In this document: positions 21,549 through 37,038 of the stretch, one piece after another
Layout: each line of letters begins with the position of its first letter
Position numbering within the stretch: the first letter of the stretch is position 1
Assembly: GCA_947179245.1 (NCBI GenBank)
Contig: CAMXBD010000012.1
Location: 1-39,674 of the forward strand
Length of the DNA: 39,674 nucleotides
Reading direction: 5' to 3'
Source of the DNA: an uncultured Lachnospiraceae bacterium
GTDB lineage: Bacteria > Bacillota > Clostridia > Lachnospirales > Lachnospiraceae
Notes under the pieces: generated by a model
Seen by the model: the letters and a program-made list of their open reading frames with translations, nothing else
What the model was told of the DNA's origin: nothing
The model's database searches: none
Program-made: the position numbers and the translations under genes

Positions 21549-22442
21549 ATGAAAAAGACAACAAAAGTAGCAGCGCTTATGCTTGCTGTAGCTATGATGC
21601 TGACAGCGTGCGGCGGTAATGCAGATCAAGCAGCGGATGCGGCTGACACAGGAATAGCAAGCCCAGAGGCGTCAACTCCCGACGAAGCGCCAGCAGACAC
21701 TGAAACACCAGCTTCCGATGAAGAGGCATCTACAGACGCAGAGACAACTGCAGCAGTTACAAAGACAGAAGGTGTTATCACGTTCGGAACAAATGCAGAG
21801 TTCCCGCCTTTTGAGTTCGTTGCAAGCAGCGGTGTGATCGATCAGTATGATGGTATCGATATGGCAATCGCAAAACAGATCGCAGAAGAGAACGGTATGA
21901 CAGCAGCAGTTGAGAATATGGAGTTTGATTCTCTGCTTGTAGCATTGCAGAATGGTCAGATTGATGCGGCAATCGCAGGTATGACAGTGACAGAGGAGAG
22001 AAAAGAAGCAGTTGACTTCTCAACACCTTACTATACGGCTACACAGGTTATGATTGTGAAGGAAGATTCCGATATCGCATCAGCGGCTGATATGGCAGAT
22101 AAGAAGATCTGTGTTGTACAGGGCTATACTGGAGAAGTATGTGTTCAGGATATGGGATATCCTTATGAGGCATTCAAGAAGGGTACAGAGGCAGTTATGG
22201 AGCTGGTAAACGGCAAGTGTGACGTAGTCGTTATCGATTCCGCAACAGCTCAGAAATATGTTGGTGACAATGAAGGTCTCAAGATTGTGGAAGATTCCGA
22301 AGCTTTCGAGTCAGAGGAATATGCGATCGCAGTGCAGAAGGGCAATACAGCACTTCTTGACATGATCAACACGGCAATCGAGGCGAAACTTGCTGACGGT
22401 ACGATTTCCGAGCTCGGTGTGCAGTATACTGAGGCTGAATAA
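21549..22442 (+). CDS. Polar amino-acid ABC transporter substrate-binding lipoprotein (normal domain order)
   Basis: A 297-residue protein. The ATG at 21549 has CAGGAGGAG upstream. The signal peptide ends at a lipobox (MLTAC, Cys21), then comes an acidic, Ala/Thr-rich linker to about residue 75. The SBP_bac_3 domain is in normal order. It starts with VITFGTNAEFPPFEF, continues with DGIDMAIAKQIAEENGM and IAGMTVTEERKEAVDFSTPYY (ligand loop with Arg), crosses to lobe 2 at KKICVVQGYTGE and VVVIDSATAQ, and returns with IEAKLADGTISELGVQY. It captures the amino acid outside the membrane for the permease at 20002. It serves as the internal reference for the permuted paralogue at 34708. A strong terminator follows. 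Confidence 0.93.
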   Translation: MKKTTKVAALMLAVAMMLTACGGNADQAADAADTGIASPEASTPDEAPADTETPASDEEASTDAETTAAVTKTEGVITFGTNAEFPPFEFVASSGVIDQYDGIDMAIAKQIAEENGMTAAVENMEFDSLLVALQNGQIDAAIAGMTVTEERKEAVDFSTPYYTATQVMIVKEDSDIASAADMADKKICVVQGYTGEVCVQDMGYPYEAFKKGTEAVMELVNGKCDVVVIDSATAQKYVGDNEGLKIVEDSEAFESEEYAIAVQKGNTALLDMINTAIEAKLADGTISELGVQYTEAE

Positions 22443-30826: not shown

Positions 30827-30936
30827 AGCGTAGATTTTTCGAGGTCTGGTCCGTAGACAGGCATCGGATAATGTCGGCAGCGACTATCGTACGCCATTTG
30901 CGGCACTGGCAGCACACAAGAAAGGATTATGTGAGG

Positions 30937-32163
30937 ATGAAAAAAATGTGGGAGAAATGGACGGGTATCAGCCTCGTCAAACGTATTATCGTAGGGTTAG
31001 TAATCGGTGTCATTCTGGCGCTGGTGGTTCCTCAGGCTTCCGGAATCGGAATCTTGGGAGATGTATTTGTAGGTGCGCTTAAGGCAATCGCACCGCTTTT
31101 AGTATTTTTCTTAGTTATGAGTTCTTTGTCGAATGCCGGTAAATCGCATGGAGGCGTTATCCGTACGGTTATTATTCTGTATATGTTCAGTACCGTACTC
31201 GCGGCAGTGATTGCGGTTTTTGCAAGCATGATTTTCCCGGTGGAGATGGTGTTACAGGAAGCGGCAGACACAGCGGCTTCTGCGCCGCAGGGCATTGTGG
31301 AAGTGCTTAGTACATTGTTGATGAACGTAGTAGCGAATCCGGTATCTGCGCTTGTCAATGCCAACTATATCGGTATTCTTTCATGGGCAGTGCTTTTAGG
31401 TGTCGCATTCCGCGGGGCTAAAGATACGACCAAGGCGGCATTGGCAGACATTTCGGAGGCTGTTTCCAAAGTTGTTACAACGATTATCAATCTGGCTCCT
31501 TTGGGTATTTTAGGTCTGGTATATACCAGTGTGACGACCAGCGGCTTAGAAACATTTACAGTGTATGGCAAACTGCTTATATTGCTGGTGGGATGTATGC
31601 TGGGTATCTACTTTATTACCAATCCGATTCTCGTATACTGGTGTATCCGTAAGAATCCCTATCCGCTTATTTTCAAGTGCCTGAAAGAGAGCGCGATCAC
31701 CGCGTTCTTTACGAGAAGTTCTGCGGCTAACATTCCGGTCAATATGAAAATATGTGATGAGATGGGACTGGATAAAGATACATATTCGGTGACGATTCCG
31801 CTTGGCGCGACCATCAATATGGACGGTGCGGCGATTACAATTACGGTCATGACAATGGCGACAGTACAGACACTCGGTATTCCGGTAGACATTCCGACGG
31901 CAATCGTCTTAAGTCTGCTTGCGGCTCTGGCAGCCTGCGGTGCCTCCGGTGTGGCGGGAGGTTCTCTGCTGCTTATCCCCATGGCATGTTCGCTGTTCGG
32001 AATTTCGGACGCGGTATCTATGCAGGTTGTGGCAGTCGGATTTATCATCGGTGTGATTCAGGATTCCGTGGAGACGGCACTCAACTCGTCTTCCGATCTG
32101 CTGTTGTCTGCTTCAGCGGAGTTCAGACAGTGGAGACTGCAGGGGAGAGAAATTAAGTTTTAG
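30937..32163 (+). CDS. sstT: Serine/threonine:Na+ symporter SstT
   Basis: A 408-residue protein with AAAGGA 10 bases before the ATG at 30937; an ATG at 30946 with GTGAGG is possible. It aligns along its whole length with SstT as I remember it from Escherichia coli. The segments are [72 protein letters not shown], then [15 protein letters not shown] and [20 protein letters not shown]. These cover the DAACS-family substrate and sodium sites (the SSAANIP, NMDGA and QDSVETALN stretches). It imports L-serine and L-threonine with Na+ and appears to be monocistronic. Confidence 0.93.
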
Positions 32164-32202: not shown

Positions 32203-32429
32203 GCAGACTGTATAAAATGTTCTCTTGTGCCGGGTTTCGGTATATGGATTTTCTAAAATAATCCGGTTAGGCTGTGGTGAACGGACGCAACCGTCCTCTA
32301 TGCGCATCCATGCGCACTTCGGACTTTTCGGGACGTCCGTGTCCCTCAATTGCTGGATGAATTACGGAATATTAAGAAAATCTCATATTCCTGCACACGA
32401 CAACTGCGTGAACATTTTATACAGTCTGC
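32203..32429. mobile_element. MITE-like element with 20-bp perfect terminal inverted repeats
   Basis: GCAGACTGTATAAAATGTTC (32203-32222) recurs inverted at 32410-32429 with no mismatch. Weaker similarity continues inward: GTGC..GG..ATATG..ATTTTCT with ATA..TCCG is present in both arms. The centre (about 32280-32340) holds short hairpins and a direct repeat, ATGCGCA twice. No transposase is encoded. No clear target-site duplication is visible next to the arms. The element fills most of the 32164-32498 gap between sstT and the alpha-galactosidase gene; the remaining sequence shows only the ribosome site. Confidence 0.6.
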
Positions 32430-32498
32430 TTGCGGCAACTCATGAATGTGCTTGTGGACATTTAAAACATTAGAAAATAACAATACATGGAGGAGCAT

Positions 32499-34646
32499 AT
32501 GGCTAAAATCGTAGATCAGATCAACATAGAAGAGGATGGAATTTATCTGGTATTTGGTGTGACGGATGAGGAGCAGTTAAAGCTCCTCCATTTTTCGTCC
32601 AATCCATTCCAAGGAATAGAGGAAAATGAGCAGTATATACAGGAAGGTTTTCAGTTTGTTCAGGTGAACTTTTCAGGATATAACAGACCTTATGAGAAAC
32701 ACGGAAATAAGCATATTGTCACGGCGCCGGGATACCTTCTGGCTTATGCGGGCATGGAAGATGGGCGAAATGAGATTGGAAGAAGACTTGTGATCACACA
32801 GCAGGATAAAGTTACCGGGGCAAAAGTGGTGTCCTATATGCAGTTCTACAGTGGAACTTCTACCTTGCGTATCTATCATGAGGTCGTGAATGAGGGAGCG
32901 GAAGAACAGACATTGGAGTATGTTTCTTCTTTCTATTATCTTGGAATCGAGAAAGAGGGGAAAACAAGTTCTGATGATAAAATGAAGCTCACCTATGCCT
33001 GTCATGGATGGCAGAAAGAAATGAATTTCCGCACGGTGACTTTTCCGCAGATGGGACTGGGACAGACCCAGCCTATGGTAAATCAGCGTACTTCTTCTAC
33101 TTTTGAACTGACGAATACGGGAAACTGGTCTACTAAGAAATATCTGCCCATGGGTTATCTGGAAAACACGGAGGCTGACAGTGGTTTATACTGGCAGATT
33201 GAGCATAACGGTTCATGGCATGCCGAGATCAGTGATGAGAACGGACATTTCTATCTGGCGCTCAGCGGTCCTACGGAAGTACAGTCACATTGGTTTAAAC
33301 AGTTGAAACCCGGAGAGCATTTTACGACAGTTCCGGTGGCGGTAGGAGTTTCGGGAGCGGATTTTGATCAGGCAATGGGACAGCTGACAAGATACCGCAG
33401 GATGATCCGGCGCCCCAATAAGGATAACGAAAATCTTCCGGTTATATTTAACGACTATATGAATTGTCTGTTTGGCGATCCGACGACGGATAAAGAGATT
33501 CCGTTGATTGACGCAGCGGCTGAGATTGGTTGTGAGTACTATGTGATCGATGCGGGGTGGTATGCGCCCGGTGAATGGTGGGACAGCGTAGGGGAATGGC
33601 AGCAGTGCAGAGAGCGTTTTCCCGGCGGGATAGAGGAAGTGACGCAGTATATCCGTGATAAAGGTATGATACCCGGACTGTGGCTGGAATTAGAGGTCAT
33701 GGGAATCAACTGCGAGAAGGCGAAGCGCGTACCGGACGACTGGTTTTTTGTCAGACATGGCAAAAGAGTTTTCGATCGGAGCAGATATCAGTTAGATTTC
33801 CGCAACCCGGCAGTAATCGAGCATGTCAACGAGGTCATTGACCGCGTAGTGAATCAGTATGGCGTGGGTTATATCAAAATGGATTATAATATTGAACCGG
33901 GAATCGGTACAGAACTGTATGCGGATAGCGTCGGACAGGGCATGCTGGAACATGAGCGGGCTTATCTGAAATGGCTGGACGGCGTGTTTGAGAAATATCC
34001 GGATCTGGTTATTGAGAACTGTTCCAGCGGCGGTTTGAGGACGGACTATGCCATGCTGTCACGTTACAGTATACAGTCTACCTCTGATCAGGAAGATTAC
34101 CGCAATTATGCTACGATTGCGGCAAATGCCTGTGCGGGACTGACGCCGGAGCAGGCAGCCGTGTGGTCTTATCCCCAGAGAGACGGTGACGAGGAAGAAA
34201 CAATTTACAACATGGTCAATGCGCTTCTTCTGCGTATTCATCAAAGCGGGCATCTGCCGCAGTTGTCGGCAGAACGCAAGGCATTGGTGAAAGAGGGAAT
34301 TGACTATTATAAAAATATCCGCGGTGATATCCGTGTGGCAGTTCCGGCGTGGCCGCTGGGGTTGGCGGACAGCTTAGATCACTGGCTTGCCGCCGCATTG
34401 AAAACAGAAGATAAAGTTTATCTTGCTGTCTGGCGGAGAGGCGGAGACGAAAGCGTTTGTGAGATTCCTCTGGATAAACTGGTTCCGGCGGGTGGGAAAG
34501 CTGTTGTACGTCTGGCGTATCCGGAGAATGCATTGGCGGAGAATGTGGAGTATTCCGTGGCTGGACAAACGCTCACGGTGAAATATCAGCAGCCCGTTAT
34601 GGCAAGGATATTTGAGGTTACCATTTACTTTAGTCCGCTACTATGA
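32499..34646 (+). CDS. Alpha-galactosidase, glycoside hydrolase family 36
   Basis: A 715-residue cytosolic enzyme without signal peptide. The ATG at 32499 has GGAGGAG 4-5 bases upstream; an ATG at 32487 is inside that site region. The N-terminal beta-domain lies at about 1-300. The TIM barrel begins near PVIFNDYMNCLFGDPTTDKE and continues with YVIDAGWYAPGEWWDSVGEW. The nucleophile D462 is in YIKMDYN and the acid/base D516 in CSSGGLRTDYAM. It hydrolyses alpha-1,6-galactosides such as melibiose and raffinose. No sugar transporter is linked to it here, so its uptake partner must be elsewhere. A mixed exo-activity on alpha-N-acetylgalactosaminides is also possible in this family. Confidence 0.9.
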   Translation: MAKIVDQINIEEDGIYLVFGVTDEEQLKLLHFSSNPFQGIEENEQYIQEGFQFVQVNFSGYNRPYEKHGNKHIVTAPGYLLAYAGMEDGRNEIGRRLVITQQDKVTGAKVVSYMQFYSGTSTLRIYHEVVNEGAEEQTLEYVSSFYYLGIEKEGKTSSDDKMKLTYACHGWQKEMNFRTVTFPQMGLGQTQPMVNQRTSSTFELTNTGNWSTKKYLPMGYLENTEADSGLYWQIEHNGSWHAEISDENGHFYLALSGPTEVQSHWFKQLKPGEHFTTVPVAVGVSGADFDQAMGQLTRYRRMIRRPNKDNENLPVIFNDYMNCLFGDPTTDKEIPLIDAAAEIGCEYYVIDAGWYAPGEWWDSVGEWQQCRERFPGGIEEVTQYIRDKGMIPGLWLELEVMGINCEKAKRVPDDWFFVRHGKRVFDRSRYQLDFRNPAVIEHVNEVIDRVVNQYGVGYIKMDYNIEPGIGTELYADSVGQGMLEHERAYLKWLDGVFEKYPDLVIENCSSGGLRTDYAMLSRYSIQSTSDQEDYRNYATIAANACAGLTPEQAAVWSYPQRDGDEEETIYNMVNALLLRIHQSGHLPQLSAERKALVKEGIDYYKNIRGDIRVAVPAWPLGLADSLDHWLAAALKTEDKVYLAVWRRGGDESVCEIPLDKLVPAGGKAVVRLAYPENALAENVEYSVAGQTLTVKYQQPVMARIFEVTIYFSPLL

Positions 34647-34652
34647 TAAAAT
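34624..34652 (+). promoter_or_regulatory. Promoter of the permuted-SBP operon (extended -10)
   Basis: TTTACT (34624-34629), a 17-base spacer ending in TGA, and TAAAAT (34647-34652) form a good sigma-A promoter with an extended -10. The -35 and spacer lie inside the end of the alpha-galactosidase gene. It isolates the importer operon as its own unit. Confidence 0.6.
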
Positions 34653-34707: not shown

Positions 34708-35511
34708 ATGAAAAAGAAACTTGCACTTATGCTGGCACTGTCCCTGACAGTGGGAACGGTACTGACAGGATGCGGTAACGCATCTGACACAGCAGACACG
34801 GCGAATGCTGACCTTGTATATGCGGTGGAAGCTGGTTCAGCCGGTGAGGCAGCAGCACAGGACAACGGATTTCAGACAAATGTGGTAGCATCTCAGGCGG
34901 ATGCACTGATGGAAGTTGCTTCCGGCACTTCTGATGCGGCAATTATTGATCTGCTTATGGCTGGCGCTATGATCGGTGAGGGAACAAGCTATCCGAATAT
35001 GAAGTATACTGATGAGCTGACTACAGAGGAATATGGTGTGGGATGCCGTAAAGGTTCCGATCTTGCTTCTTACATCAATTCCGTATTTGCAGAAAGCTAT
35101 GCAGATGGCTCTATGAAAGAGACAGCTACTACCTATGGCGTGCAGGAAGCATTGGTTGAACAGCCTGCTTCTGAGTTCACTGCATCAGCAGAAGACAGTG
35201 ATGTGGCTTATATTCAAGATAAGGGTACAATGATCATAGGCATCACCGATTTTGCTCCGATGGATTATAAAGATGAGTCCGGTGAGTGGATTGGCTTTGA
35301 CGCGGATATGGCTCGTATTGTAGCTGAGAAATTGGGTGTGGAGGCTCAGTTCGTAGAAATTGACTGGGATAACAAGATCATGGAGCTGGAGTCCAAGAAC
35401 ATTGATGTTGTATGGAATGGCATGACACTTACTTCCGAAACAACATCTGCTATGGAATGTACAAACCCCTACTGTAATAATGCGCAGGTAATTGTAGTGC
35501 CTGCTAACTAA
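34708..35511 (+). CDS. Amino-acid-type ABC substrate-binding lipoprotein, circularly permuted
   Basis: A 267-residue protein. The ATG at 34708 has GGAGGAG upstream; the lipobox is VLTGC (Cys22). Residues 36-151 (VYAVEAGSAGEAAAQ, SDAAIIDLLMAG, EEYGVGCRKGSDLASYI, ESYADGSMKETATTYGV) match the second half of ordinary SBP_bac_3 proteins: lobe 2 plus the C-terminal helices. Residues 152-172 are a linker. Residues 173-267 (TMIIGITDFAPMDYKD, GFDADMARIVAEKLGV, NIDVVWNGMTLTSE, AQVIVVPAN) match the normal N-terminal half. Together they give one complete fold in rotated order. The usual Arg of the ligand loop is absent (LTSETTS instead of TxxxR). The next two genes encode its permease and ATPase. The assignment to the polar amino-acid importer family is clear; the ligand is unknown. 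Confidence 0.88.
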   Translation: MKKKLALMLALSLTVGTVLTGCGNASDTADTANADLVYAVEAGSAGEAAAQDNGFQTNVVASQADALMEVASGTSDAAIIDLLMAGAMIGEGTSYPNMKYTDELTTEEYGVGCRKGSDLASYINSVFAESYADGSMKETATTYGVQEALVEQPASEFTASAEDSDVAYIQDKGTMIIGITDFAPMDYKDESGEWIGFDADMARIVAEKLGVEAQFVEIDWDNKIMELESKNIDVVWNGMTLTSETTSAMECTNPYCNNAQVIVVPAN

Positions 35512-35586: not shown

Positions 35587-36243
35587 ATGTTTTGGAGTGT
35601 TACACAATCGCTGTTAGGCGGTCTGCTCACAACGTTTCAGATTTTTATTTTTACACTGTTGTTTGCATTGCCGCTCGGTCTGATTCTGGCATTTGGTTCC
35701 ATAAGTAAGTTCAAACCGTTGCGCTATCTGATACAGGTACTGGTGTGGATTATTCGCGGTACGCCGCTTATGCTTCAGCTTATCATTATATTTTATGGTC
35801 CCGGTCTGTGGCTTGGACATAATATATGGAGCGGCAATGAAGCGGGTCGTATCACTGCTACCGTTGTAGCGTTCAGTATCAATTATGCCTGCTATTTTTC
35901 GGTTATTTTCCGTGGAGGTATCGAGGGCGTACCGGCAGGACAGCGTGAGGCGGGACAGGTGCTTGGTATGACCAAGTCGCAGATATTTTTCAGAGTAACA
36001 CTTTTGCAGATGGTGAAACGTGTAGTGCCGCCTATGTCCAATGAAATCATTACACTGGTAAAAGATACTTCGTTGGCACGTATTATTGCCGCATATGAAC
36101 TGACTTTTGCGGGATATTCTTTCATGAAGAGCAATGGACTGACATGGCCGTTGTTCTACACCGGTGTATTTTATCTGATCTTTGTAGGCATCTTAACACT
36201 GCTGTTCAATTACATTGAGCGCAGACTGGATTATTTTAGGTGA
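35587..36243 (+). CDS. Amino-acid-type ABC transporter permease, partner of permuted SBP
   Basis: A 218-residue membrane protein, with GAAGGAGAAG before the ATG. It has an N-terminal LLGGLLTTFQIFIFTLLFAL, five membrane segments, IIRGTPLMLQLIIIFYGPGL, and the EAA loop in parts (EAGQVLGMTKSQIF, then VPPMSNEIITLVKDTSLAR). It is a HisM/GlnP-type channel and presumably a homodimer. It is similar in type to the permease at 20002-20700 but not a close copy. It docks the permuted binding protein from outside and the next-encoded ATPase from inside. Confidence 0.92.
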   Translation: MFWSVTQSLLGGLLTTFQIFIFTLLFALPLGLILAFGSISKFKPLRYLIQVLVWIIRGTPLMLQLIIIFYGPGLWLGHNIWSGNEAGRITATVVAFSINYACYFSVIFRGGIEGVPAGQREAGQVLGMTKSQIFFRVTLLQMVKRVVPPMSNEIITLVKDTSLARIIAAYELTFAGYSFMKSNGLTWPLFYTGVFYLIFVGILTLLFNYIERRLDYFR

Positions 36244-36252
36244 GGTATACAT

Positions 36253-37038
36253 ATGGCGATTCTTGAGGTGAAAAATATTGGAAAACAATTTGATTCGACT
36301 ATGGTGTTGAATGATGTCAGCTTTTCTCTTGAGGAAGGTAATGCGCTTGCGATCATCGGTTCTTCGGGTTCGGGTAAGACGACGCTTTTACGCTGTCTTA
36401 ATTTCTTGGAGACGCCTGACAGAGGTTCCATTATCGTGAAAGGGGAGACTCTTTTTGATGCGTCCATGCCCCTTAAAGAGCAGGGAAAAGGTCTGAGGAC
36501 AAAACGTCTGCATTTCGGCATGGTATTCCAGTCTTTTAATTTGTTTCCTCAGTATACGGCATTGGAGAATGTTACGTTATCCGAGAAGCTGCTGGCGAAG
36601 GAAAGAGAGGACTTTAAGCAGAATAAAAAGGATATCTATGCGCAGATAGAGAAACATGGCGTAGAACTGTTGGAGCAGATGGGGCTAGCCGACCGTATGA
36701 CGCACTATCCCCACCAGTTGTCCGGCGGACAGCAGCAACGTGTCGCAATCGCCAGAGCATTGGCGCTTAAGCCGGATATTCTGTGTTTCGATGAACCGAC
36801 TTCCGCACTCGACCCGGAGCTGACCGGAGAAGTGCTTAAGGTAATCAGAGGGCTTGCAGACCAGAAAACGACGATGATCATCGTCACTCATGAGATGGCA
36901 TTTGCAAGAGATGTGTCCGATCAGCTTATTTTCATGGATGACGGCGTGATCGTGGAGCAGGGCGATCCCAAGCAGGTGATTGACCATCCGCGCGAGGAGA
37001 GGACGAAGCAGTTCCTGACCAGATATGCACAGGGATAA
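36253..37038 (+). CDS. Amino-acid-type ABC transporter ATPase
   Basis: A 261-residue ATPase starting 9 bases after the permease stop. Walker A is GSSGSGKTT at 36-44, the Q-loop GMVFQSFNLFPQYTALENV, the signature [19 protein letters not shown], Walker [19 protein letters not shown], and the H-loop VTHEMAFARDVS. Compared with GlnQ at 20716 it carries an insertion of about 20 residues in the helical domain (KEREDFKQNKKDIYAQIEK), seen in several Clostridia amino-acid ATPases. It energises the channel of the preceding gene. Confidence 0.92.
   Translation: MAILEVKNIGKQFDSTMVLNDVSFSLEEGNALAIIGSSGSGKTTLLRCLNFLETPDRGSIIVKGETLFDASMPLKEQGKGLRTKRLHFGMVFQSFNLFPQYTALENVTLSEKLLAKEREDFKQNKKDIYAQIEKHGVELLEQMGLADRMTHYPHQLSGGQQQRVAIARALALKPDILCFDEPTSALDPELTGEVLKVIRGLADQKTTMIIVTHEMAFARDVSDQLIFMDDGVIVEQGDPKQVIDHPREERTKQFLTRYAQG

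Follow-up and report, generated by a model that had tools for sequence, protein, structure and literature searches.

The window, by which we mean the whole 39,674-nucleotide stretch of DNA analysed here, from an uncultured Lachnospiraceae bacterium, carries at positions 34708-35511 of the forward strand a gene for a 267-residue lipoprotein whose lipobox cysteine, Cys22, is read directly from the sequence. Two genes adjoin it on the same strand: a permease (35587-36243), which matches PF00528 and scores above the cut-off of TIGR01726, HEQRo_perm_3TM (62.6 against 42.2), and an ABC ATPase (36253-37038), which matches PF00005 and whose nearest NCBIfam model, cystine TcyN, is matched below its cut-off (308.4 against 406). 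A first-pass annotation had described the lipoprotein gene as intact, equipped with a good promoter and accompanied by a matched permease and ATPase; the two partners are as described, while the good promoter is only weakly supported: the promoter-like hexamers on the same strand at 34618-34652 come from a scan that gave 6 sites where 4.8 are expected by chance. The same promoter-like stretch is also found upstream of the related gene of genome G012 discussed below. Elsewhere in the window, an RNA of the TwoAYGGAY family (Rfam, cis-regulatory type; 89.7 bits against a cut-off of 43) lies on the reverse strand at 32232-32398, between the ORFs 30871-32163 and 32487-34646 of the opposite strand.

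All parts of the lipoprotein lie on the forward strand. The signal peptide (34708-34773) ends at Cys22 in the motif LTGC, and is followed by a spacer of residues 23-35 (34774-34812) running from the lipid anchor to lobe 2, as judged from the sequence, from low pLDDT at residues 21-30 and from spacer lengths. Residues 36-151 (34813-35160) correspond to the C-terminal half of the normal fold, comprising lobe 2, hinge strand 2 and the C-terminal helices of lobe 1. A new linker, residues 152-172 (35161-35223), bridges the old C- and N-termini and holds a helix at 165-172 in the predicted model. Residues 173-267 (35224-35508) then supply the N-terminal half of the normal fold, up to the new C-terminus VIVVPAN. 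The predicted strands at residues 108-113 (35029-35046) and 260-265 (35485-35502) are taken by homology to be hinge strand 2, predicted to be the sole covalent crossing between the lobes, and hinge strand 1, now a free C-terminal strand with the cut directly behind it.

This reversed order of the halves was claimed in the first-pass annotation, and it is confirmed here far beyond chance. In HMMER the protein is matched by the SBP_bac_3 profile (PF00497) in two stretches, swapped, and in no single collinear one; the best of them aligns residues 179-266 to profile positions 5-92, and the whole-protein score is above the gathering score (92.6 bits against 26.4). The paralogue at 21549-22442, cited in the same annotation as the example of normal order in this genome, is matched in one collinear stretch (residues 77-294 to profile positions 1-130). 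Two further comparisons agree: residues 169-264 match positions 6-102 of the TmArgBP chain 6svf (i-Evalue 2.6e-18), residues 38-134 match positions 121-217 (i-Evalue 8.5e-5), and, on a model of 228 positions made from 65 relatives of normal order, the window protein matches positions 109-227 first (156 bits) and positions 1-100 after them (181 bits). The normal relatives L030, L227, L229, L233 and L235 are read by this model in one piece. Some eight model positions, 101-108, which in normal proteins form part of the link between the lobes, have no match in the window protein. From the profile, 6svf and normal-model mappings we conclude that the order is really swapped and that the cut separates the first hinge strand from lobe 2; the break at 100|109, together with strand 260-265 of the predicted model, agrees with the earlier placement of the cut at the first hinge crossing. 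The collinear lobe-1/lobe-2/lobe-1 order is absent, and the protein is thus a permuted derivative of the family, not an ordinary SBP_bac_3 member. One of the normal-order relatives, L227 (G503, contig 43), is preceded by three repeats beginning YAPDGR, perhaps a surface-anchoring region.

Folded by AlphaFold2 with 67 permuted sequences, the window protein gives one confident fold (pLDDT 89.4, pTM 0.80), with no sign of two incomplete lobes, the outcome that the first-pass annotation had named as counting against permutation; pLDDT drops below 50 nowhere outside residues 1-30, and the linker is predicted with confidence. In all probability the protein adopts the familiar two-lobed flytrap shape and passes its ligand, which would be bound as in a normal flytrap, to the downstream permease and ATPase. 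The chain would start in lobe 2 beside the lipid anchor, cross once to lobe 1 via hinge strand 2, pass through the joined old termini and end in hinge strand 1, docked as a free strand. In the family-3 fold both of the old termini belong to lobe 1, so that a short linker would keep lobe 1 whole; the insert between BLAST-defined halves measures 8-16 residues (median 10) in 110 permuted ORFs, and in 109 of these 110 the tail is 6-9 residues long when measured from the conserved Q of NNAQ. A lobe-2 cut beside the hinge would leave one covalent crossing and one docked strand, and we infer from the model that the window protein has a single covalent connection between its lobes, which may alter opening and closing as the first-pass annotation suggested. 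Such a gene may have originated by tandem duplication followed by loss of the outer pieces; no tandem-fused intermediate was found among the ORFs scanned.

The permuted order is widespread in the genus. Among 77 same-genus genomes, 50 carry the permuted gene, 12 carry a normal-order gene of the subfamily (G012 included) and 15 have no match at E<=1e-30; none carries both orders, and five of the 50 permuted carriers also have a more distant match to the N-terminal half, at 50-54% identity. Keeping only ORFs in which both halves scored above 90 bits left 137 ORFs from 142 loci (119 of them distinct), 110 permuted and 27 normal. In a family sample of 397 genomes, nine, the window's own among them, align with the permuted protein over its full length in a single run, and 68 do so in separate or partial pieces. 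All 80 loci on named public contigs are permuted, a figure that is no measure of frequency because these are the best 80 of 512 matches to a permuted query; the permuted public records include strains 0.1xD8-71 and 1xD42-87 and Oscillibacter sp. PC13. The neighbours recur as well: a permease followed by an ATPase lies within 1500 bases downstream in 97 of the 110 permuted loci, and a permease with two ATPases in one more (98/110 in total), leaving 11 loci with one partner only and one with neither. Compared with eight permuted relatives, the window gene shows a dN of 0.012-0.102; dS exceeds 1.2 for seven of them, with dN/dS of 0.009-0.05, and is saturated for the eighth. The window genome is a draft in 233 contigs and 87.6% complete, so that an assembly artefact, or a broken and shuffled gene, might be suspected; the recurrence of the order across genus genomes and public records, strain records among them, and the strength of purifying selection rule this out for the window, and we regard such an origin as having practically no chance of being correct. 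The gene is therefore intact, as had been claimed, and the circular permutation of an SBP_bac_3-type lipoprotein is supported jointly by profile mapping, structure prediction, conservation, synteny and purifying selection.

By its sequence and setting the window protein is most likely the lipoprotein that binds the substrate for a polar amino-acid type ABC importer. SBP_bac_3 domains occur in sensors too, and a chemoreceptor-like sensor lipoprotein that forms no part of an importer might be considered on that ground; the Pfam matches of the window protein include no sensor domain, and a permease and an ATPase directly follow the gene in 98 of the 110 permuted loci, which makes a sensor very improbable. 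As to the ligand of the importer, residue 245 (35440-35442) stands at the place of the Arg in the ITEER motif of TmArgBP, presumably a ligand of the alpha-carboxylate; unlike TmArgBP, the subfamily of the window protein lacks this Arg, having V or T in 92/92 permuted rows and V in 26/26 normal rows. Asp81, which we take to be a ligand of the alpha-amino group, is invariant in 67/67 permuted proteins. The loss of the Arg with retention of Asp81 hints at an unusual ligand, perhaps not an ordinary amino acid since the carboxylate Arg is absent. Permutation and Arg loss are not tied to each other, as the Arg is missing in both orders of the subfamily and is kept by several other permuted groups: by eye, it is present in L161-L163, L178-L183, L218-L221, L223-L225, L240-L242 and L256, and missing in L167-L169, L184, L222 and L226.

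One genome of the genus, G012, carries the gene in normal order and in a single copy (L026, 1069-1893). Its product is nevertheless very close to the window protein (C-terminal half 94% identical, N-terminal half 92%, and 92% over 224 columns), the adjoining permease shares 98.6% identity with that of the window and the ATPase 95.9%, and the gene is constrained (dN 0.03-0.06 against dS of about 1.2-1.3 to the window). The junction of its halves, DTADAAGAEFVYAVEAG (IPDTADAAGAEFVYAVEAG), resembles the permuted N-terminal spacer of the window protein, DTADTANADLVYAVEAG. Normal relatives link their halves differently: L030 does so by VPADVADQYQDTDSLSELTFAVEAG, and the link has the same length in all 26 normal rows besides L026, whose junction is six residues shorter (an insert of 5 residues against 11 in each of the others). 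At the end of the C-terminal half, the DNA of L026 repeats gtagaacagaca. Cys113 (35044-35046) is common to 92 permuted rows, L026 and five sister normal rows, with Phe in the 21 other normal rows, and is a marker of the lineage that gave rise to the permutation seen in the window.

In a careful tree of 54 rows, hand-picked from the 119 distinct ones, L026 groups with eight permuted rows (95/80); all normal rows come together in 0/200 bootstrap trees, and an AU test rejects them as one clade (p=0.024, 23.5 log units). Since a normal-order protein is nested among permuted ones and has a junction like the permuted N-terminal spacer, the order in G012 has apparently changed back to normal, a conclusion that rests on one genome. 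The simplest history would run from normal to permuted to normal again, the last step starting from a permuted tandem copy. Alternatively, G012 may have kept the ancestral order, or gained it by recombination, with no reversion at all. The quick tree of all 119 rows points that way: there the AU test does not reject the normal rows as one clade (p=0.73), and the tree with that grouping imposed came out 23 units better, a result put down by the tool to a free search that had not reached this tree, and one that we count as evidence against reversal; the p value on the careful tree is, moreover, moderate, and a single genome is involved. The close identity of L026 and of its permease to those of the window, its nested placement in trees and its short, spacer-like junction argue the other way, and we consider a history free of reversion improbable, with an apparent return to normal order the preferred reading.

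The permutation of the window gene has counterparts in the class Clostridia. Class-wide searches with segment and whole profiles, covering 391, 381 and 376 genomes, revealed three permuted orders, types A, B and C, with all cuts in lobe 2. In type A, to which the window gene belongs, the cut lies at model 100|109. Type B (L167-L169, L179-L184, L218-L225 and L250) is cut at about position 169, and its chain starts at the second hinge strand; of these, L218-L222, L224 and L225 were typed by eye and then mapped on the normal-order model. Type C (L226 and L240-L243) is cut at about position 131, inside lobe 2, and occurs in five genomes of three families; L243 is a shorter ORF that ends inside the N-terminal half. 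Sequence-checked permuted genes are present in at least seven sampled class genomes for type A (G000, G120, G744, G617, G579, G703 and G711), at least 17 for type B and at least five for type C, counts that are lower bounds because only three queries were used. For the type-B rows L220-L225, no permease was matched within the short flanks available, and for two of these six the longer loci, from G554 and G522 (L252 and L255), show one; L195 has no permease match in 1497 bases of flank. In one type-B protein, L181 (G511, contig 12), an N-terminal membrane-like segment and a long charged spacer stand in place of the lipobox; the same genome holds a second type-B gene, L180, on another contig.

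Phylogenetic trees were built from sequences rotated to a common start. A tree of 83 rows (81 of 184 distinct rotated rows together with the normal-order L032 and L033) implies nine order changes, and one of 87 rows, without L222 and L236, implies ten where the minimum possible is three; in the latter, well-supported branches force at least four changes for type A, at least five for type B and at least eight for normal order, and type C forms one clade. This 87-row tree is unrooted, so that gains and losses are not fully separable in it, and long branches meet among its divergent B and C rows. Leaving out the four longest rows (L222, L226, L236 and L178) gives a reduced tree with seven order changes, on which a single clade is rejected for type A with L026 (p=5.0e-9) and for type B (p=1.8e-5), as is the union of two near B groups in one clade (p=1.0e-14). 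The direction of the changes, gain or loss, is read from the prevalence of the normal order across the whole family.

These scattered orders could instead derive from a few permutations and several reversions. The apparent reversion in G012, the placement of the normal rows L032 and L033 inside type-B rows and the absence of a root are all in keeping with such a history. Set against it are the junctions, as the 26 other normal rows inspected share the long insert that L026 lacks and the links of L032 and L033 look ordinary by eye, and also the prevalence of the normal order in the family; we judge it unlikely, though less so than a history of G012 free of reversion. Independent permutations are the better reading, and we favour, with some reservation, the view that in the family-3 binding lipoproteins of Clostridia chain order evolves freely and reversibly, through at least six separate permutations at three lobe-2 cut sites and one return.

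On that view each permutation would shift the membrane tether off lobe 1 and onto lobe 2, the return would shift it back, and the position of the tether is possibly under selection. A simple lipobox pattern was sought in residues 1-75 of the open frame; it is present in 91/100 type-A, 13/16 type-B, 0/1 type-C and 64/67 normal rows, and the median spacer from the lipid cysteine to the fold is 9 residues in type A (n=91), 10 in type B (n=13) and 22 in normal proteins (n=64). We infer that all three cut types place the lipid anchor on or beside lobe 2, and the tether of the window protein would accordingly sit on lobe 2, no longer on lobe 1.

Taken as a whole, the best explanation, and one that we hold with considerable confidence, is that the window encodes a family-3 solute-binding lipoprotein in permuted form, serving a polar amino-acid ABC importer and belonging to a family in which chain order has changed repeatedly in Clostridia, at three or more lobe-2 cut sites and with an apparent return in G012. 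Many natural circular permutations have been deduced from comparisons of very distant proteins; in the present family the two orders can be set side by side at about 60-94% identity per half, with the same transporter genes as neighbours and inside a single genus. Several separate changes, and what appears to be one reversal, amount to a natural experiment in which chain order changes while the shape would stay. Direct tests thereby become possible of the way a permutation comes about and of its cost, of whether both covalent crossings are required for hinge motion, and of whether it matters where the lipid anchor sits. There is a practical consequence too, in that the collinear profile PF00497 reports such proteins as two stretches and not as one domain.

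Known binding proteins differ from that of the window in several ways. Normal-order family-3 proteins (PF00497; TmArgBP 4prs/6svf, GlnH, HisJ and LAO) lack its swapped halves and its termini in lobe 2. Assignment to the OpuAC/ProX class was considered and rejected, as the only Pfam matches of the window protein at E<=10 are PF00497, PF10613 and PF14503, in a search whose filters drop most matches above about 0.1. Membership of type Ic / cluster Bc was likewise set aside, the window protein matching family-3 proteins and no type I family in Pfam, and being predicted to have a single chain crossing in place of a fourth. That type was proposed for Tp0684 (TpMglB-2) of Treponema pallidum, described as a naturally permuted lipoprotein, the binding component of an ABC importer, for which glucose binding with conformational change is reported and membrane anchoring is raised as a possible reason for the permutation (PMC4990184). 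Unlike the window protein, it belongs to the type I sugar-binding class and, according to the same paper, has an N-lobe permutation with a fourth crossing added, the permuted part being 13% identical (PMC4990184). The CPSARST paper gives natural permutation among glycine-betaine OpuAC/ProX, molybdate-binding proteins and CysB, relations seen by structure at less than 24% identity (PMC2395249), far below the identity between the two orders of the window's family. The best structural match of the window protein is PfVFT1 of Plasmodium falciparum (5jkq_B, 16% identity), a eukaryotic flytrap protein and in that respect different; it may have a type-B-like order, since it aligns in one run over the old C-terminal part and the N-terminal half. 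Searches of open-access full text, which miss most subscription papers, yielded no natural permutation of family-3 binding proteins. Natural permutation as such has thus already been published for other classes of binding protein, and it is the recurrence of the change, together with its apparent reversal, that forms the new element here.
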